This document shows positions 26,750 to 40,587 of a stretch of DNA of 41,900 nucleotides, piece after piece. The stretch's first letter is position 1, and each line of letters opens with the position of its first letter. Under the pieces are notes generated by a model that searched no databases, was not told where the DNA came from, and saw only the letters and a program-made list of their open reading frames with translations. Both the position numbers and the translations under genes were made by a program. This DNA is from Thermoanaerobaculia bacterium (GTDB lineage: Bacteria; Acidobacteriota; Thermoanaerobaculia; Multivoradales; JAGPDF01), in the NCBI GenBank assembly GCA_018057705.1, contig JAGPDF010000041.1, positions 1-41,900 of the forward strand. The letters are read 5' to 3'.

Positions 26750-27148
26750 CTACTCCTTCGGCTCGGCCGGCGCAGCGGCGCCCGCCTCCGGAGCTGGCGC
26801 TTTGGGATGGTGCTCCTGCATCCAGGTGCCGAGCCCCTCCATGTCCTTCACGAGGCCCTGGAACTCCTTGCCCTTGGCGGTGAGCTTCTTCGAGCCGGGC
26901 TTGGTGACGTGGCAGCTGGTGCAGGCACCGAAGGTCGCCTTCAGATCCTCGAAGCCAGCGAGGGTGCGCATCGTCTCGTAGTACTTCCCCTGATCGGTGA
27001 GGAGCTTGCTGCCCGGCTTGTCGTGGCAGACCGTGCAGGAGATGCCCTCCTGCTTCCCGACCTTTTCGCTGCCCGAGGCGAGGGTACCGGCGAACAGAGC
27101 GGCGGCGGCCGTCATTGCTGCTGCGGCGAGGATTCTCGATCGTTTCAT
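26750..27148 (-). CDS. Small periplasmic diheme cytochrome c
   Basis: 132 residues from ATG 27148 with a strong GGAGG 6 nt upstream. Signal peptide RSRILAAAAMTAAAALFAGTLASG (cleavage near residue 27). Two heme-binding motifs: CTVCH (about residue 38) and CTSCH (about residue 76), spaced by about 38 residues within a repeated HDKPGSKLLTDQGKYYETM / HVTKPGSKKLTAKGKEFQGL pattern, so the protein is an internal duplication. The tail is Pro/Ala-rich. Likely a periplasmic electron carrier. It lies 11 nt after the FadL-like gene in the dsrC-like operon, so it probably serves the sulfur-redox island. No specific partner can be named. Confidence 0.88.
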   Translation of the reverse strand: MKRSRILAAAAMTAAAALFAGTLASGSEKVGKQEGISCTVCHDKPGSKLLTDQGKYYETMRTLAGFEDLKATFGACTSCHVTKPGSKKLTAKGKEFQGLVKDMEGLGTWMQEHHPKAPAPEAGAAAPAEPKE

Positions 27149-27159
27149 GGCGTCCTCCG

Positions 27160-28467
27160 TCAATGGCTCGACCGCGACTTCGCCCACGAGATCCCGAAGG
27201 CAACCGTCCACTGGCTGTGGTCGACTCGCGCTCCGGGGCCGAAGGGGTTCACCATCGGGTCGGTGTTGTTGTTGGTGTTCGAGGCGTTCAACGCATGCTC
27301 GAGGGCAAACTCATAAGTGACGCTGCCCCTGAGCACGCTCGCGCCGACCGACAGGTGATGCTCGGTCGTCGCCGGGAAGAGCGGCGTCAGGGTTTCGTCG
27401 GGGACCGGGTTCTCGCCGTAGTTGTAGCCGGCACGCAGCGTCCACTCGTCGCTCGTCCGCCATTCGCTGCCCAGCGCGAAGACCCAGACGTCCTTCCAGT
27501 TGAAGACGAACGGCAGCTCGACGCGAGCCGGCGCCCCCGCCACTGACGGATCGGTGCCGATGACCTGGATCGTGTCGATGGCGCTGTCCCAGAAATAGCG
27601 CTTGACGTCGACCAGCAGCTGCCAGTTGTCGGTCACCCGCACCGCCGTGCCGACGCCGGCCTGGGCGGCGAAGGTGAAGCCGTCCATCTCGGCCTCGTAG
27701 TCGACCTTCTGGCCGAGCCCCGGCATCTGCTGGAAGTTGACCCGCAAGGTGCCGCCGTCGAAAGTACTGCTGGTCTTCGTCTGGTAGATCGCGCCGAACG
27801 ACCAGCGCGGATTCGGGCGCCACCAGCCGCCGAGCCGCAGGCTCGTCTGCAGGCCGCCGGCATCCTCCATCTTCGGTCCGAAGAAGCTCATCTGCGGATT
27901 CTGGGTGTTGAAGAAAGAGGTGTCGGGGAAGAAGCGGAACGCCGCGTCGGCATAGCCGAGGTTGAGCGTCGCGCCGATCGCGAGGTCCTCGGAGAAGGAG
28001 TAGGCGACGGTCGGCGAGATCGTCATGAATCGCACCTGGGTATAAGTCTGGTCCTGGGTGCCGAAGAAGGTGTTGAGGTCGTCGAAGGTCGCTCCCATTC
28101 CGCCCTGGGCGATGAACCCGACCCCCCAGGCCCACGGCGTCTCCTTCCCCGAGCGCACCCAGGCGAAGGCGGGCAGCGGGAAGTAGCGGCTCGACGCGTC
28201 CGTCGGTTGATTGACCATGTTCTCGAACTCGAGCGTCGGCGCGAGTACCGCCAGGCTGGCCGTGAAGTGGTCCCCCTGGAGCTGCGCGATTCCGGCCGGA
28301 TTCGAGTTCAGGCCGAGCGAGCGGTCCGACACGGCGAGGTTGGCACCGCCGCGGCCGAGCTCCTCGGGGCCGTAGCCGGTGAGATAGAGGCCGTTCGTCG
28401 CCTGCGTGGCGACGGCGGCGGCAAGGAAGAGCGTGATCCCGATGCAGGCATTGCGGTAGAGGTTCAT
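27160..28467 (-). CDS. FadL/OmpP1/TodX-family outer membrane channel
   Basis: 435 residues with a signal peptide (RNACIGITLFLAAAVATQA). The mature start TNGLYLTGYGPEELGRGGANLAVSDRSLGLNSNPAGIAQL is the diagnostic FadL opening, with the NPAG motif. The body alternates as a beta barrel with aromatic-rich strands and ends WTVAFGISWAKSRSSH; the terminal His in place of Phe or Trp is slightly off the usual outer-membrane end signal. FadL proteins move hydrophobic compounds laterally through the outer membrane. Lying between a DsrC-like gene and a cytochrome c gene, its cargo could be hydrophobic sulfur species or a hydrocarbon. This is inference, and fatty acids remain possible. Confidence 0.9.
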   Translation of the reverse strand: MNLYRNACIGITLFLAAAVATQATNGLYLTGYGPEELGRGGANLAVSDRSLGLNSNPAGIAQLQGDHFTASLAVLAPTLEFENMVNQPTDASSRYFPLPAFAWVRSGKETPWAWGVGFIAQGGMGATFDDLNTFFGTQDQTYTQVRFMTISPTVAYSFSEDLAIGATLNLGYADAAFRFFPDTSFFNTQNPQMSFFGPKMEDAGGLQTSLRLGGWWRPNPRWSFGAIYQTKTSSTFDGGTLRVNFQQMPGLGQKVDYEAEMDGFTFAAQAGVGTAVRVTDNWQLLVDVKRYFWDSAIDTIQVIGTDPSVAGAPARVELPFVFNWKDVWVFALGSEWRTSDEWTLRAGYNYGENPVPDETLTPLFPATTEHHLSVGASVLRGSVTYEFALEHALNASNTNNNTDPMVNPFGPGARVDHSQWTVAFGISWAKSRSSH

Positions 28468-28501: not shown

Positions 28502-28828
28502 TCATGGCTCGTGGTTGCACTGAGGAGGCTTGGGAAGGCCGGCGATCTTCGTCATCAACTCGAAAGGGCGCTGCCGGAAGAGGCGATGGAGCTCGAGGAT
28601 CGGCAGGCCGGCAAGCCGGACGACCGCACAGAGGTCAGGAGAGTGCCCCTCGCGCGCCGCCGCCTCGCGGCAGCAGAGAAGTACCCGCCAGTGGCGCGGG
28701 CTGAGCTCTTCCAGGCCGCTCTCCCGGGCCATCTGCTCGGCGATCTCCGGGGTCCAGGCGAGCGAGTCGACGAGAAAGCCGCTGTCGTCGATCTCGACCT
28801 CGCGTCCCGGCAGGGTGCGTCTCGGCAT
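28502..28828 (-). CDS. DsrC/TusE-family sulfur-carrier protein
   Basis: 108 residues. EIDDSGFLVDSLAWTPEIAEQMARESGLEELSPRHWRVLLCCREA and the C-terminal KIAGLPKPPQCNHEP are the family core. DsrC has two Cys on its flexible C-terminal arm. Here the outer one is Cys104, but the inner position before KIAGLPKP is Thr93, so a DsrC-type intramolecular trisulfide or disulfide cannot form at that pair. That resembles TusE-like members. Four residues (NHEP) follow Cys104, where DsrC normally has one. Known role: carries persulfide sulfur. No dsrAB or tus genes are in the window. First gene of a unit with the FadL-like and cytochrome c genes, behind a sigma-54 promoter. Confidence 0.9.
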   Translation of the reverse strand: MPRRTLPGREVEIDDSGFLVDSLAWTPEIAEQMARESGLEELSPRHWRVLLCCREAAAREGHSPDLCAVVRLAGLPILELHRLFRQRPFELMTKIAGLPKPPQCNHEP

Positions 28829-28856
28829 CTTCGACCCCTTCCCGCAGAGTCGGATC

Positions 28857-28871
28857 GCAGCACTCGTGCCG
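28857..28871 (-). promoter_or_regulatory. Sigma-54 (-24/-12) promoter of the dsrC-like operon
   Basis: On the minus strand CGGCACGAGTGCTGC fits the TGGCACG-N4-TTGC consensus with two substitutions and has the exact GG-N10-GC spacing (GG at 28869-28870, GC at 28857-28858). Expected transcription start near 28845, about 17 nt before the dsrC-like ATG at 28828. A sigma-54 activator gene is in the same island. Confidence 0.72.
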
Positions 28872-28947
28872 GAACGTCAACCCGCTGAAAACACAGCCCT
28901 TGCCCGGTCCCCATCGACTTCGCCCGAAGAGAAAGAAACGCGGCGTT

Positions 28948-28962
28948 GCAACGGGCCGTTGC
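28948..28962. repeat. 15-nt palindrome upstream of the dsrC-like promoter
   Basis: GCAACGGGCCGTTGC, 7-bp arms around one base, adjacent to the GTTTC/GAAAC repeats. It may be a regulator site or the remains of a terminator for the YeeE-rhodanese gene; there is no T tract. Confidence 0.4.
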
Positions 28963-28963
28963 G

Positions 28964-28986
28964 CCCTGAAACAGTTTCTGAAACAG
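28964..28986. promoter_or_regulatory. Candidate sigma-54 activator sites (GTTTC/GAAAC)
   Basis: Three 5-nt half-sites at 11 to 12-nt intervals: GAAAC (28968), GTTTC (28974) and GAAAC (28980), forming two overlapping 11-nt palindromes. They lie about 120-140 nt upstream of the predicted transcription start, the usual distance for a sigma-54 enhancer. The same half-sites recur at 40310-40338. Confidence 0.5.
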
Positions 28987-29016: not shown

Positions 29017-30213
29017 TCAGCAACCGCCCTTCACCGTCTTCGGCGCCGCGCGCGGCGCGCTCGGCGCTTCGCGCTCCAACCGGATCCGCTCGAGAAGGGT
29101 CGCCTGCGCCTGTCCCCGGAAGCGTGCGACGTCGGGCGCGTGGCGCCCCTCATCCGCTGCGCCCGCCGTATTCGCGAGGATCGTGCGCTCGAAGGACTCG
29201 TAGCCTCCGGCCAGGATCGCAAGATTCTCGTAGCCGGCCTCGCCCAGAAGGTACGCGGAGAAGCGCGCCTCGTCCTCGGTCGCCGCGATCAGGATCTTCC
29301 TCACGTGGCGGGAGCCAAACTCGGCCTGCCACTGCTTCTCGAGAATCGCAGCGGCTGGAACCGGCGTCGCGCCCGGCATGGGATGCGCCGCGCGCGCGGC
29401 TTCGTCGCGCAGGTCGAAAACGCGGGTCCGGGGATCGCGGTCGACGAGCCGGAACGCCAGTTCGTCGGGCGTCATCGACCGCACCGCATGGCGGGGGACG
29501 TACCCTTCGTTCTTCACCTTCGCCTCCAGGCGCGCCGTTCGCCCCGGGAGGAGGGCCGCGAAGAGGGCGATGGTGAGCAGGCTCGCCGCAGCAACGGCAT
29601 GTCGCCTTGCCGGAAAGGCGATCGACGGCGCCGTGGACGGAGCGATTCTGCGCTCGATCCTGCCGCCGACGGCGAAGATGAGCACCGCCGCCGCCGCCAA
29701 CAAGAGGACGAAGAGCCCGGGCGAGATCCCGAGCCACTCAGGGACCTGCAGGGGTCCCAGGGCCGTCGAGTCGGCAAAAGCCTGAAGCCTCGGGAAGAGC
29801 TCCGCATAGGCGAAGATGCCGAGCAGGCCGCCCGCCGAGAAGACCATGGCGTCGATCTTCCCGATCGCGGCACCGCAGAAACTGGTGCCGGGGCAGTAGC
29901 CGCCGAGGAGAAAGCCGAAGCCCATGAGAACTCCCCCTGCGATCGCGGGCCAGAACCAGGTCGGATTCACGAAGACCGCGCGCAGATCGAGCAGGCCAGC
30001 CGAAGCGAGCAGCAGCACGCCGAGCGCGGCGGTGACGGCGGCGGTGAAGAAGACGCGGAGGACCGTCAGGTCGTAGCCGTAGAAAACGCCGACGAGGCGT
30101 CGCGACGACGAGAATCCGGCCTGCTCCAGCACCCAGCCGAAGAGAAACCCGAGAACGAGCGCGACAACGAGGTTGAGCTCGTCGGAGATCAGATCCGGAA
30201 CCAGGGGCCCCAT
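29017..30213 (-). CDS. YeeE/YedE (large half) fused to Cys-less rhodanese-like domain
   Basis: 398 residues from ATG 30213. Membrane part (about residues 10-225) with the YeeE signature GGYCPGTSFCG (Cys107, Cys113), preceded by EQAGFSSSRRLVGVF. A final helix (about 205-222) leads to a rhodanese-like domain (about 245-345). This contains RVFDLRDEAARAAHPMPGATPVPA and the strand KILIAATEDEARFSAYLL, where the catalytic Cys expected after the strand is Ala. The only Cys outside the membrane part is the last residue, in KTVKGGC. Known: YeeE/TsuA proteins import thiosulfate through conserved Cys. Inferred: the terminal Cys tail handles sulfur next to the channel. It pairs with the small YeeE encoded 4 nt upstream. 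Confidence 0.87.
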   Translation of the reverse strand: MGPLVPDLISDELNLVVALVLGFLFGWVLEQAGFSSSRRLVGVFYGYDLTVLRVFFTAAVTAALGVLLLASAGLLDLRAVFVNPTWFWPAIAGGVLMGFGFLLGGYCPGTSFCGAAIGKIDAMVFSAGGLLGIFAYAELFPRLQAFADSTALGPLQVPEWLGISPGLFVLLLAAAAVLIFAVGGRIERRIAPSTAPSIAFPARRHAVAAASLLTIALFAALLPGRTARLEAKVKNEGYVPRHAVRSMTPDELAFRLVDRDPRTRVFDLRDEAARAAHPMPGATPVPAAAILEKQWQAEFGSRHVRKILIAATEDEARFSAYLLGEAGYENLAILAGGYESFERTILANTAGAADEGRHAPDVARFRGQAQATLLERIRLEREAPSAPRAAPKTVKGGC

Positions 30214-30217
30214 CGCG

Positions 30218-30748
30218 TCACCGCTCCCCGTTGCGCTGCAACCAGAGGCCGCGGGTGGCCCAGGAGAACGCGAAGCCGGTGCCGAAGATGGCAAACATGG
30301 TGAGGAAGCCGGCCACCGAGAGCACGGCCATACCCGAGAGCGCCGCGCCGCTCGTGCAGCCGCGCGCGAGCTGCGCCCCGACGCCGAAGAGCGAGCCGCC
30401 CAGGAGTGCGAAGGTGAGCCGGCTCCAAACGGCGACGCGCGGACCGCGCTCGGTCACCAGCTTCAAGCGGTCGGAGGCCAAGCCGGAGACGAAGGCCCCG
30501 AGCAGGACGCCAGCGATCTCGAAGACCAGCCAGCCTTTCAGCGGGCTCTCGTGGCCCGGCCCCAGGACCTTGGCATAGAAGGGGTTTGCTGCAGCATGGT
30601 CCGGGGCCACCGCGCCGACCGCGGCGACGACGACGTTCTTCGACGCACCGCTCGCGCCGAGGCCGCGCCCGGTGACGAAGATCGTCGCGAGGAGCACCAG
30701 GCCGAGGAGGAATCCGGCCAGGTAGGGATTCATCGGTCCGTTGTTCAT
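30218..30748 (-). CDS. YeeE/YedE-family membrane protein (small half, PmpA/B-like)
   Basis: 176 residues from ATG 30748, which overlaps the cytochrome b stop by 4 bp. About five hydrophobic helices, with MNPYLAGFLLGLVLLATIFVTGRGLGASGA at the N-terminus. The signature is LARGCTSGAALSG, the second Cys motif found in full-length YeeE/TsuA. It and the large half downstream together would rebuild the two-repeat TsuA-type channel. Probable role: uptake of thiosulfate or a related sulfur compound. Its counterpart at 36000-36542 is similar throughout. Confidence 0.88.
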   Translation of the reverse strand: MNNGPMNPYLAGFLLGLVLLATIFVTGRGLGASGASKNVVVAAVGAVAPDHAAANPFYAKVLGPGHESPLKGWLVFEIAGVLLGAFVSGLASDRLKLVTERGPRVAVWSRLTFALLGGSLFGVGAQLARGCTSGAALSGMAVLSVAGFLTMFAIFGTGFAFSWATRGLWLQRNGER

Positions 30749-31425
30749 GGATGCACCTGGTGTTCTGCCTTCGTAGACGAGTCGGTGGATGAGGGTGAGG
30801 AAGATGCGACCGTGGGCGCGTCTTCTTCGATCTCCTCCCAACCCGTGACCATCGCCTTGAGGTTGGAAGTGATCGTGCGGCCGGTGGTCGTGAGATAGAG
30901 GTGGGCGACGAGGAAGGCGAGCAGCGCGAACGCTCCCGCCGTGTGAATCAAGGCGATCGGTTCGAGCGCCTGGACGTCCAGGGCGAGCACTTCGTAGCGC
31001 TGGGGATAGCGGAAGAACATGTAGAGCAGACCCGAGACGACCACGACCGGGATCACGAGGATCTTCAATCCAGCGTAGGTGAGCTTCTGGAGGGGATTGA
31101 GTTTCTGCAGCCGGCTCTTCCGGGTCGGATGCGGAGCATCCTGGAAGATCCCGAACAGGTAGTACTCCGCCTGCGCCCGGAGGTTCTTCCAGGTCGGCAG
31201 GTACTGGCGCCATTCGTCGGTCGTGAAGTGCCAGAAGACCGCGAATGCGATGAGGACGAGGAACGCCGTCGCGGCCGCGCTGTGGAGATGCACGGCCTGC
31301 CCGAATCCGAAGAACGAGATCGAGCCGTGGATTTCGAACCCGGTGATGGCCAGGAAGAGAATCAGGAGGGCCTGCGTCCAGTGCCAGAAGCGGCCGAAGG
31401 CAGGGTAGACGAGCTCGCGTTTCAT
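30745..31425 (-). CDS. Membrane cytochrome b (b561/FdnI-like)
   Basis: 226 residues from ATG 31425. YPAFGRFWHWTQALLILFLAITGFEIHG (about residues 6-33) with His in helix 1, VHLHSAAATAFLVLIAFAVFWHF in helix 2, then LVIPVVVVSGLLYMFFRYP and LIHTAGAFALLAFLVAHLYL give four helices and paired His ligands, as in di-heme b561-type quinol subunits. It should exchange electrons between the quinone pool and the octaheme cytochrome encoded 1 nt upstream, whose own C-terminus is membrane-anchored. The Ser/Thr-rich tail after residue 195 is low complexity. The small YeeE gene overlaps its stop. Confidence 0.87.
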   Translation of the reverse strand: MKRELVYPAFGRFWHWTQALLILFLAITGFEIHGSISFFGFGQAVHLHSAAATAFLVLIAFAVFWHFTTDEWRQYLPTWKNLRAQAEYYLFGIFQDAPHPTRKSRLQKLNPLQKLTYAGLKILVIPVVVVSGLLYMFFRYPQRYEVLALDVQALEPIALIHTAGAFALLAFLVAHLYLTTTGRTITSNLKAMVTGWEEIEEDAPTVASSSPSSTDSSTKAEHQVHP

Positions 31426-31426
31426 C

Positions 31427-32995
31427 TCAGTTCTCTCCCCGGCGCCGGCGCCGGAACCAAAGGCGTGCCCCGCCATGAAGAACGACGGCCACCAGAGTCG
31501 AAAGCAGCATTGTCGCGCCGAGACCGTCGAGCCAGCGACTGCGATCCCTCCCCGGCAGGTAGAAGCCGCCGAGAGTCGCGAGCCGTCCACCCTCGCGCCG
31601 GTGGCACTCGTCGCACGCGACCGCCTGCTCCTTCGGCGCGACCATGTGATTGACCGGCCAGTTCATCTCGGTCGCAGCGAAACCGTAACTGCCGCTGTAC
31701 GCAAGTCCGACCTCGTTCATGCCGGCGGTGGCCGCCCTGTCCCAGTCGAACTCCTTCCAATACCCGCTGTCGCCTGCTGCTGCGGAAAAGAGCTTGGGCT
31801 GGATCAGGATCCGGTTCAGGACGTCGTAGATCTGCCGAGCGCGGTGGATCTTGACCGGAACGATCCTGGCGTCCGGGTCTTCGTAGTCGCCGAAGAGGGG
31901 GTTGAGGACGAGGGGCTGGGAAGGATCGAACTCGTCCCCCAGCAGGTAGTGCGATGCGGTGCCGTTGAACCAGGTGTACTCGGGACGCACGTCCTTGCCC
32001 CAGACGAAGCTGCCCTTGGTCGACATGTAGGTCGGATTGCCCGCCTCGTCCACCTCCTGGTAGGGCTTCCCGTCGCGCAACGAACCGGCGGTCGACCAGT
32101 CCCACCGGAGCTTGGTAGCGGCGACCTTGGCGTAGCTCGGAATGTGACAGGTCTGACAGGCGACCTTGTAGCCGTGCTGGTTGAGGATCTTGTCCTCGTG
32201 GGGCAAGGCGCCGTGGCAGCTTTCGCACTCCACCCGGTCGCGGTTCATCGACGAAAGCGAGTAGGCCTTGCCGAGCATCTGGTGGTTCTCGGCGCGATGA
32301 CATTCGACGCACGACATGTCGCCGCCATCGGACGCCATGTGAACGTCGACGTCCCGGCTGGTGTCGAGAAGTGCTACCTCCAGATCGCCGTGCTTGACGT
32401 TGTTGCCGCCGCCGCCGAGAAAGTGGCAGGCGCCGCAGTTGGCCCGCTGCGGTCGGCCAACAGCCCGCGCCACCTTCGCCAGGTCGAGGTCGGGAGCGGG
32501 CATGCCTGCGCCTCCGCTCTTCTTGGCGTAGTCGCCGCCGTTGTCGTGACAAGCGAGGCAATCGACGTTCCGCGGGTCGGTGAGGTCGAAAGAGGCATCA
32601 GCCCAGCCGTAGCCGACATGACAGCTGTCGCAGGTCTGCTGGCTCCCGGCGACTCCGATACAGAAGTTATTGAGGATGTTCTTCTTGCCGACCGCCCGGA
32701 TCCCCTTGCCCTCGATGTACTCGAGACGCTCCCAGTTCCAGTGCGACGACGCCATGACCTCGGTGTGGCGCGAGTTGTGGCAGCCAATGCAGGCTGCAGT
32801 GACCTCCTGTGGCCGCTCGAAGGGCCCCGCGAGCTGTTCGAAGCGGGCATGATCGACAGCGGGACCGGACTTGACCTTGTGCTCCTCTCGCAACTTGTCG
32901 AGCGGCTTCGGGGCCGGACCGGCCGGACGCAGAGTGAGAACGGAGAAACCGATTGCCGCTGCCAGCGCCACCAGGATGACCAGGATCTTTCTCAT
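31427..32995 (-). CDS. Octaheme c-type cytochrome, tetrathionate reductase family
   Basis: 522 residues. Eight CxxCH motifs at about 69, 122, 146, 187, 229, 257, 280 and 461; the seven-plus-one spacing matches the octaheme tetrathionate reductase (OTR) family. An N-terminal hydrophobic helix (about 4-21) is a signal or anchor. A C-terminal helix (about 491-513) followed by RRRRRGEN forms a membrane anchor, which would place the enzyme on the outer face of the inner membrane. Known OTR-type proteins reduce tetrathionate, nitrite and hydroxylamine in vitro; the physiological substrate is uncertain. It heads the module with cytochrome b and two YeeE genes, favouring a sulfur substrate. A CRP/FNR-like dyad lies 42-57 nt upstream. 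Confidence 0.92.
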   Translation of the reverse strand: MRKILVILVALAAAIGFSVLTLRPAGPAPKPLDKLREEHKVKSGPAVDHARFEQLAGPFERPQEVTAACIGCHNSRHTEVMASSHWNWERLEYIEGKGIRAVGKKNILNNFCIGVAGSQQTCDSCHVGYGWADASFDLTDPRNVDCLACHDNGGDYAKKSGGAGMPAPDLDLAKVARAVGRPQRANCGACHFLGGGGNNVKHGDLEVALLDTSRDVDVHMASDGGDMSCVECHRAENHQMLGKAYSLSSMNRDRVECESCHGALPHEDKILNQHGYKVACQTCHIPSYAKVAATKLRWDWSTAGSLRDGKPYQEVDEAGNPTYMSTKGSFVWGKDVRPEYTWFNGTASHYLLGDEFDPSQPLVLNPLFGDYEDPDARIVPVKIHRARQIYDVLNRILIQPKLFSAAAGDSGYWKEFDWDRAATAGMNEVGLAYSGSYGFAATEMNWPVNHMVAPKEQAVACDECHRREGGRLATLGGFYLPGRDRSRWLDGLGATMLLSTLVAVVLHGGARLWFRRRRRGEN

Positions 32996-33036
32996 GGGAC
33001 TTGCCTCGCACTGAGTTTCGCTGTCGCTGTGGGACG

Positions 33037-33052
33037 GGTGACCCGTGTCACC
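33037..33052. promoter_or_regulatory. CRP/FNR-family-like operator upstream of the octaheme operon
   Basis: Perfect dyad GGTGA-N6-TCACC, sharing the GTGA-N6-TCAC core of CRP-type sites, centred about 50 nt before the ATG at 32995. A second GGTCACC half-site occurs about 100 nt further upstream. No sigma-54 -24/-12 motif with correct spacing was found here. Confidence 0.45.
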
Positions 33053-33255
33053 AGGAGCCGGGCCGCGGCGCCGGGGCGCAATCCTCCAAGGTGCGGAAGC
33101 TCTCGGAGCTCAGGCGTCGGGGCGCTCGGATCTGCGGCAGAGTGGGTCACCAATGAGGAAGAGACCCGAGGCGGGCGAACAGTTCCCGGAAGCAAGCCGC
33201 AGCCCGCGAGCCGACTTCGCCGGGCGGCGCCGCAATACGGGAAGGAAGAAGGCGG

Positions 33256-34689
33256 TCAGGCGACGAAGCCGTGCTCGCGCATCTTGCGCCAGAGCGTCGT
33301 GCGGCTCATGCCGAGCGCCCGCGCAGCCTCGGCGCGCCGCCAGCTGTGCGAGTCGAGCGCCCGGCGAAGCTCTTCGGCCTCGAGCCGTCGTCGCGCCAGC
33401 GCGATGCTCCCGGCTGGAGGCGGCGCGGAGTGCTCGACGCTCTCGGTGTGCGGCTCCAAGCGAGCTCCCGGCAAGGCCACCTCCTCGAGCGACGCGCGGC
33501 GGGCCAGAGTCGGAAGATCCTCGGGGAGGATCGTCTGGCCGTGGCAAATCGCCACCGCATACTCGAGCGCGTTCTCGAGCTCACGGACGTTGCCCGGCCA
33601 GTCGTGGGCAAGGAGGTCGCGCAGCGCGTCAGGCGACAGACGCAGCGCCCGGCCCTGGCGCGCGGCGACGCGAGCGAGAATCGCGCGCGCCAGCGGCTCG
33701 ATGTCCTCGCCGCGGCGGGTGAGGGGCGGGATGTCGATCGGCACGACGCGCAGGCGGTAGTACAGATCTTCGCGGAAGCGGCCTTCGCGCACCGCACGCG
33801 CCAGATCGATGTGGGTGGCAGCGATCACCCGCGCCCGGCTCACCCGCGTGCGGTTCTCGCCGACGCGCTCGAACGAGCCGTCCTGCAGCACGCGCAGGAG
33901 CTTCACCTGCAGCGGCAGCGGGAGATCGCCAACCTCGTCGAGCAGGAGCGTCCCCTCGGAGGCGACCTCGAAGCGCCCCATGCGGTCGCGCAGGGCCCCG
34001 GTGAAGGCGCCCCGCACATGCCCGAACATCTCACTCTCGAGGAGCTCACCGGGCAGGGCGCCGCAGTTGACCGCCACGAACGGCTTCCCGCGGCGCGGCG
34101 AGTGCTCGTGGATCGCCCGTGCCACGACCTCCTTCCCCACCCCGCTCTCGCCCGAGAGCAGGATCGTGGCATCGCTCTCGCGCAGGTTCTCGATCAGCGC
34201 GAAGATCTTCTGCATGGCGGGCGAGCGCGCGACGATCCCGCTGAACGCCGACGGTCCACCGAGCACCGCCGGCAGATCCTCCTCGGCTGGTCGCAGGATG
34301 ACCGCGAAGGCGACGCGCGGATCGCAGGCCACCTCCGGCGGCGGACAGATCGGTGCGGCCGAGAGGGCCGCGAGGCGCTGCAGCCCACCGGCGCCGGTAA
34401 CGACTGCCCGCCAGCCCTCGCGCCGCTCGCCCGCGAGGAGCGCCGCGCGCAGGGCGCCGCCCTCGGCGAAGAGCTCGCCGCCGATGAGCTCGTCGATCGG
34501 CCGCTCGACGACCGCGGCCGCCGTACCCGCGCCCGCCAGGTCGTCCAACACATAGGAGGCATGCACGACGCGGAACTCGCGGTCGAGGCAGAGGAAGACC
34601 CGACCGAACGCGGCGAAAGAGGTGGCGACACCGCTCCAGGCGATCTCCTCGGGCGTGGGCGACATCGGCTTTCGAATCGTCTCGGTCAT
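33256..34689 (-). CDS. Sigma-54-dependent activator with PAS-like sensor and Fis-type HTH
   Basis: 477 residues from ATG 34689. An N-terminal PAS-like domain (about 20-135) carries Cys34, Cys115 and Cys122. The AAA+ domain (about 150-385) has GESGVGKE (180-187), the sigma-54-contacting GAFTGA loop (227-232), LLLDEVGD (248-255), the FREDLYYRL arginine-finger region and WPGNVREL. The C-terminal HTH (about 430-477, ALDSHSWRRAEAARALGMSRTTLWRKM) is Fis-type. No phosphoacceptor receiver domain is present, so the signal is probably sensed directly. Located between the two redox modules. Likely target: the sigma-54 promoter at 28857-28871 with the GTTTC/GAAAC sites. The stop-to-start gap from the rhodanese gene is 22 nt, so it may be co-transcribed with module 1. 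Confidence 0.93.
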   Translation of the reverse strand: MTETIRKPMSPTPEEIAWSGVATSFAAFGRVFLCLDREFRVVHASYVLDDLAGAGTAAAVVERPIDELIGGELFAEGGALRAALLAGERREGWRAVVTGAGGLQRLAALSAAPICPPPEVACDPRVAFAVILRPAEEDLPAVLGGPSAFSGIVARSPAMQKIFALIENLRESDATILLSGESGVGKEVVARAIHEHSPRRGKPFVAVNCGALPGELLESEMFGHVRGAFTGALRDRMGRFEVASEGTLLLDEVGDLPLPLQVKLLRVLQDGSFERVGENRTRVSRARVIAATHIDLARAVREGRFREDLYYRLRVVPIDIPPLTRRGEDIEPLARAILARVAARQGRALRLSPDALRDLLAHDWPGNVRELENALEYAVAICHGQTILPEDLPTLARRASLEEVALPGARLEPHTESVEHSAPPPAGSIALARRRLEAEELRRALDSHSWRRAEAARALGMSRTTLWRKMREHGFVA

Positions 34690-40288: not shown

Positions 40289-40309
40289 GGCATCGACTCC
40301 GTGACGAAT

Positions 40310-40338
40310 CGTTTCAAGCGCGAAACGACCATGAAACG
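40310..40338. promoter_or_regulatory. GTTTC/GAAAC repeats upstream of the molybdoenzyme operon
   Basis: CGTTTC-N6-GAAACG (40310-40327) followed by GAAACG (40333-40338). The half-sites match those in front of the dsrC-like operon but with different spacing. They lie only 22-50 nt before the ATG. No sigma-54 -24/-12 motif with correct spacing and good sequence was found between them and the gene, so they may act as an operator or serve an unseen promoter. Confidence 0.4.
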
Positions 40339-40384
40339 CCCCGGCGGAGGAGTCGCGCTCCCACCCTTCGGGGCGGGAAGAGGC

Positions 40385-40587
40385 TTAGCCTGACCTTCTC
40401 ACCGGCTTCGTCGCGAGGCGTGGCAGATGCCCGTGACGGCAAGGCGTCGCGACCGAGGCCCGCGCAGACGTACTTTCAGTACGTCGAGCAGGCGGGGTAC
40501 CCGTCCTGTGGACGGGTCGTGAGCGCAACGCAGCCGGCATGGGCAGATGCGGCGCCGCAGTAGAAGTCTGGTGAGAATGTCAGGCTA
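40385..40587. mobile_element. MITE-like element with 18-bp terminal inverted repeats
   Basis: The left end TAGCCTGACCTTCTCACC (40386-40403) is the inverse of 40570-40587 with 17 of 18 bases matching. GAGGC flanks both sides (40380-40384 and 40588-40592), a possible 5-bp target duplication. Inside are two perfect 8-bp hairpins with 3-nt loops: 40467-40485 and 40499-40517. There is no open reading frame that could encode a transposase. It fills almost the entire gap between the anti-sigma-like gene and the molybdoenzyme, and its right end supplies the stop codon of the anti-sigma-like gene. No second copy is in this window. Confidence 0.65.

Follow-up and report, generated by a model that had tools for sequence, protein, structure and literature searches.

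A FisR-like sigma-54 activator with its own palindromic enhancers as the probable switch of a dsrC-fadL-cytochrome c operon in a Thermoanaerobaculia bacterium

In classical sigma-54 systems of the NtrC and NifA type, palindromic enhancers occur in pairs some 80-150 nt upstream of the -24/-12 element. The promoter described here resembles them in carrying paired palindromic enhancers upstream of a -24/-12 element, but the palindrome and the signal differ, and the activator has no receiver domain. FisR, described in Cupriavidus pinatubonensis and Acinetobacter baumannii, is a sigma-54 activator that adjoins and activates the sulfide-oxidation genes sqr and pdo (PMC7315123; PMC9774590). For the Cupriavidus protein, three conserved cysteines are reported to serve in the sensing of reactive sulfur (PMC9774590); they are lacking in A. 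baumannii FisR (PMC7315123). In the window analysed here, which is the whole 41,900-nt stretch of contig JAGPDF010000041.1, the best reading of the sigma-54 enhancer-binding protein (EBP) coded at 33256-34689 (minus strand) is that of a FisR-like PAS-domain activator that works with sigma-54 on sulfur operons. We consider it probable, at about 0.8, that this EBP binds palindromes upstream of a dsrC-fadL-cytc operon and opens its sigma-54 promoter, with sulfide or sulfane sulfur as the most likely natural signal.

EBP lies in a minus-strand gene cluster that starts with psrA-, psrB- and psrC-like genes, two yeeE genes and a rhodanese gene, and continues after EBP with genes for an octahaem cytochrome and a cytochrome b, two yeeE-type genes (the second fused to rhodanese), and dsrC-like, fadL-like and cytochrome c genes. 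The otr-cytb-yeeE-yeeE/rhodanese genes (29017-33255), of which otr matches the tetrathionate-reductase family (TIGR04315, above cut-off), separate the activator from the promoter, so that the two are about 4 kb apart; this is not so in the sister species. Like FisR, with which it was compared by description only, EBP has an N-terminal regulatory domain, here a predicted PAS domain with C34 and C122, an AAA+ domain and a Fis-type DNA-binding domain (Pfam PF00158, E 3.1e-68; PF02954, E 3.3e-12). With an intact GAFTGA loop, a Fis-type HTH and no receiver domain, it has the make-up of a bacterial enhancer-binding protein, and domain and sequence analysis thus bore out the first-pass annotation, which had described a receiver-less sigma-54 activator with such an HTH. 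No NCBIfam equivalog scored above cut-off. Plasmid-borne FisR relatives were set aside, since among the matches listed only the AAA+/HTH part matches.

The first gene behind the promoter (28502-28828, minus strand) codes for a dsrC/tusE-like protein of 108 aa (PF04358, E 9.7e-21; TIGR03342 above cut-off). DsrC proper has two C-terminal cysteines. The product here has one, in ...MTKIAGLPKPPQCNHEP, and none at the second DsrC position, so by the two-cysteine criterion its sequence does not classify as DsrC proper and fits the broader TusE/DsrC/DsvC family. The second gene (27160-28467, minus strand) codes for a FadL/OmpP1-like outer-membrane protein (PF03349), and the third (26750-27148, minus strand) for a small c-type cytochrome. 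The suggestion that the circuit may be complete within the window stands insofar as a probable cognate activator, the promoter and the operon are all encoded there.

The gap between the yeeE/rhodanese gene (end 29017) and the dsrC-like gene (start 28828) holds a minus-strand -24/-12 element, CGGCACGAGTGCTGCG, in which positions 28871-28856 read CGGCACG-AGTG-CTGCG. Its GG-N10-GC core is exact, as had been claimed, and so is the claim that it lies near the translation start behind a short leader, because the GC of the -12 box ends 28 nt upstream of the ATG at 28828 and a transcription start about 12 nt past the -12 box would give a leader of about 17 nt. The element departs at 2 positions from an extended consensus built on the relatives and at 3 from the textbook one, with a C at the first T and a G at the last position; these deviations (CGGCACG...CTGCGAT) are identical in the sister species, the position is conserved in relatives and rpoN is present in the genome. 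Taken alone, the element proves nothing, since 45 -24/-12-like sites with up to 3 mismatches occur in the window against 50.6 in shuffles, and it is the comparative evidence below that marks it as a genuine sigma-54 promoter.

Two overlapping palindromes on the minus strand, a proximal one (TGCAACGCCGCGTTTCT, 28934-28950) and a distal one (CGCAACGGCCCGTTGCA, 28947-28963), start upstream of the -24 box by exactly 79 and 92 nt, at a spacing of 13 bp. Each is TGMAAC-N5-GTTKCA with 1 mismatch, and the proximal position is the same in most relatives. Together with the -24/-12 element they form a composite that a single promoter of the window carries; none of 200 shuffles of the window and none of 20,000 shuffles of the 188-nt gap reproduced it. 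Nowhere else in the 5.1-Mb genome does it recur: a search with the 79-nt spacing gave one exact match in each genus member (own and sister genome), both at this promoter, and no further match in either genome when 1 mismatch was allowed, while a wrong-spacing control with a 56-nt spacer did not match the site. The single exact palindrome of the own genome (contig C65) lies within a coding frame and has no -24/-12 element, and was treated as chance. We found no enhancer of this sequence in the literature searched, and a search for terms in the paper on the Desulfovibrio sigma-54 regulome returned no match (PMC4641369).

Comparison of 59 genomes from the genus, family and order of the window showed an orthologous activator in 17, separated from paralogues by a wide gap (56-61% identity outside the genus, with E at or below about 1e-149, compared with about 1e-83 for the paralogues). 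DsrC-like matches were present in 15 of these 17 genomes and in 5 of the 42 others. The dsrC-fadL-cytc genes directly follow the activator in the sister species, and in most other relatives the activator is followed by sqr, dsrC, a DsrE-like gene, fadL and cytc (families checked on locus L056). Behind the activator, nearly all order-level relatives carry TTGGCACG-N4-CTGCTC-type elements and TGMAAC-N5-GTTKCA palindromes, the latter mostly starting 78-82 and 91-94 nt upstream of the -24 box. In a set of 43 activator loci from several phyla, a -24/-12 element lies downstream of the EBP orthologue in 28 (0.72 expected from shuffles), a palindrome with at most 1 mismatch in 28 (0.12 expected), and both, with up to 2 mismatches in the palindrome, in 27 (0.01 expected); the order-level relatives supplied the consensus, so that their share of these counts is partly circular, and those added loci that lie on contigs other than the ones of the order-level set are independent of its derivation. 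The remaining 15 loci have no -24/-12 element at the thresholds used, some being near misses by eye (L096) and others showing none. The equivalents in the 28 loci uphold the first-pass view of a sigma-54 promoter in front of the dsrC-like operon.

Activator and site thus co-occur across phyla as judged from their sequences, also beyond immediate linkage. The 17 genomes with the activator contain 30 exact palindromes, of which 22 lie at promoters of activator, sqr or fadL genes, and the other 8 are about the same background as the 6 found in 17 genomes without it. Promoters unlinked to the activator carry the composite at the usual spacing (sqr in L059 and L065, fadL in L068), and within 450 nt upstream of sqr neither palindrome nor -24/-12 element was found in 4 relatives that have sqr-dsrC and no orthologous activator. 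The first gene behind this promoter type is elsewhere sqr, fadL (directly in L049, as well as in L068), a TolC-like gene, psrA-like (L105 by Pfam check; L081, L084 and L117 by their N-termini) or yeeE-like (L080 and L085, by sequence), which suggests that regulon content varies while control is constant. In genomes G037 and G045 a TolC-like outer-membrane gene, assigned by sequence, comes first behind the enhancer promoter (L059 from 9232 onward, and L058), and sqr has a separate copy of that promoter.

The repeats that the first-pass annotation had singled out exist as described: CTGTTTCAGAAACTGTTTCAG occupies 28986-28966, about 120-140 nt from the expected transcription start. GTTTCNGAAAC occurs exactly once in the window and GAAACNGTTTC in only 2 places in the genome. 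Just one other GAAAC-N-GTTTC palindrome exists in the genome, and its position about 0.8 kb away from rpoN (contig C13 of G000, 43379 and 44169-44645) is probably coincidence. The alternative that EBP or another regulator binds the GTTTC-N1-GAAAC block as the actual operator gains something from the block's being an exact palindromic triplet that is rare in the genome and whose 12-bp register is retained in the sister species, where GTTGCA-N6-GTTTCA stands in the identical register and is followed by GTTGCA and GTTTCA at the same distances. The N1 palindrome is absent from the sister species, however, and none appeared in the further activator loci that were read, while the N5 palindrome is conserved, which makes this reading improbable. 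Repeats had been expected in relatives that keep activator and operon, and what the sister species keeps is the half-site register, not the palindrome. In the sister species the sites of the gap are 73% identical (49/67 positions) and the rest of it 47% (57/121); together with the register, this points to the block (28966-28986, minus strand) as an auxiliary 12-bp-period direct repeat of the half-site GTTTCA, preserved in the sister species only. The proposal of upstream enhancer sites was therefore right, but the core enhancer, as far as sequence conservation can tell, is the pair of N5 palindromes at 28934-28963, and a genome scan with GTTTC-N-GAAAC would have missed the regulon.

It could also be argued that a sigma-70 promoter, a terminator or an RNA structure explains the segment and that its sigma-54 resemblance is accidental, given that the -24/-12 element by itself does no better than chance in a GC-rich window. 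Searches of the segment for sigma-70-type promoters and terminator-like sites found none and its RNA fold is not unusual (z-scores of only -0.6 and -1.1), so we rejected these candidates; the composite, moreover, is missing from all shuffles yet conserved in relatives, and chance resemblance is very hard to credit.

According to the preferred reading, EBP would bind the overlapping TGMAAC-N5-GTTKCA palindromes, probably helped by the upstream half-site repeat, and would loop to the sigma-54 polymerase held at 28856-28871, its ATP hydrolysis then opening the dsrC-fadL-cytc promoter. Sulfide or sulfane sulfur would act on C34 and C122 of the PAS domain, as described for FisR. In relatives the targets of the activator/site pair include genes for type III sulfide:quinone reductase, DsrC, DsrE-like, FadL, PsrA-like and YeeE-type proteins, and these sulfur-gene targets, together with the PAS cysteines and the reactive-sulfur sensing of FisR, make us lean towards sulfide or sulfane sulfur as the signal. 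Both N-terminal cysteines are present in 17/17 order-level orthologues; over 44 sequences, C122 is found in 44, C34 in 36 and C115 in 5. The eight orthologues without C34 but with C122 (L088, L096, L103, L107, L111, L113, L115 and L120), several of them from Anaeromyxobacter or from deltaproteobacterial or myxococcal bins, provide a natural test of which cysteine matters. Their existence means that a two-cysteine switch is not universal, and one or two cysteines in the orthologues contrast with the three of the Cupriavidus protein.

Promoter and enhancer could be real and the signal still not be reactive sulfur, if what the PAS domain detects is the redox state or a small ligand, or if EBP is regulated only by its own expression. 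The predicted fold (pLDDT 86) matches solved structures of PAS and LOV domains, the closest including LOV domains, Aer and NifL, which is consistent with such sensing, as are the lack of C34 in some orthologues and the absence of type III sqr from the window's genus. But C122 is invariant and, across phyla, nearly every target is a sulfur gene, and we regard this possibility as unlikely, though a good deal less so than the two discussed above.

In most relatives the EBP orthologues are linked to type III sqr; no type III SQR above cut-off was found in the window's genus, which to judge by the conserved sites keeps the switch on dsrC-fadL-cytc. Targets that include dsrC, DsrE-like, fadL, psr and yeeE genes set the system apart from FisR. 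In two of the four activator-less relatives with sqr-dsrC (G017 and G046, from one genus), the sqr-dsrC-dsrE-tusA cluster contains a CsoR-family gene accompanied by ATACC-N4-GGGGTAT palindromes (L042, 6126-6141 and 8510-8535; L043, 6284-6299), which we take to be the operator type of CstR. From these sequences the regulator seems to have been exchanged, the same type of cluster appearing to be under a CstR/CsoR-type persulfide repressor with a palindromic operator, unlike the sigma-54 activator here, and this offers a natural case of one gene cluster under either kind of control. We give an even chance to the broader view that these PAS-containing, cysteine-bearing sigma-54 activators, with an enhancer code of their own (TGMAAC-N5-GTTKCA, 79 and 92 nt upstream of the -24 box), form an unnamed class and act as a sulfur switch that is widespread among Acidobacteriota, Myxococcota and neighbouring phyla, has been swapped for CstR-type repressors on the same sqr-dsrC cluster and has outlived sqr in the window's genus, where it runs a DsrC-FadL-cytochrome module. 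The recurrence of activator and site in many relatives, ahead of genes for sulfide oxidation and other sulfur genes, opens an unstudied sulfur regulon to reading and testing. Together the activator, its enhancer sequence, the spacing and the promoter amount to a readable regulatory code for sulfur metabolism in mostly uncultured bacteria, one that ties genes of obscure function, those for the FadL-like porin, the small cytochrome c and the DsrC-like and DsrE-like proteins, to sulfide oxidation by shared control, beyond neighbourhood.

Two further features lie near the start of the cluster. CGTTTCATGGTCGTTTCGCGCTTGAAACG at 40305-40340 (minus strand) has three GTTTC/GAAAC half-sites in 27 nt, about 20-50 nt before the psrA-like gene, and no good -24/-12 element was seen near it. 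Between two genes at 40386-40587 is an element of about 200 nt whose ends form imperfect inverted repeats of 55 nt (71% complementary) and which looks like a small mobile or repeat element.
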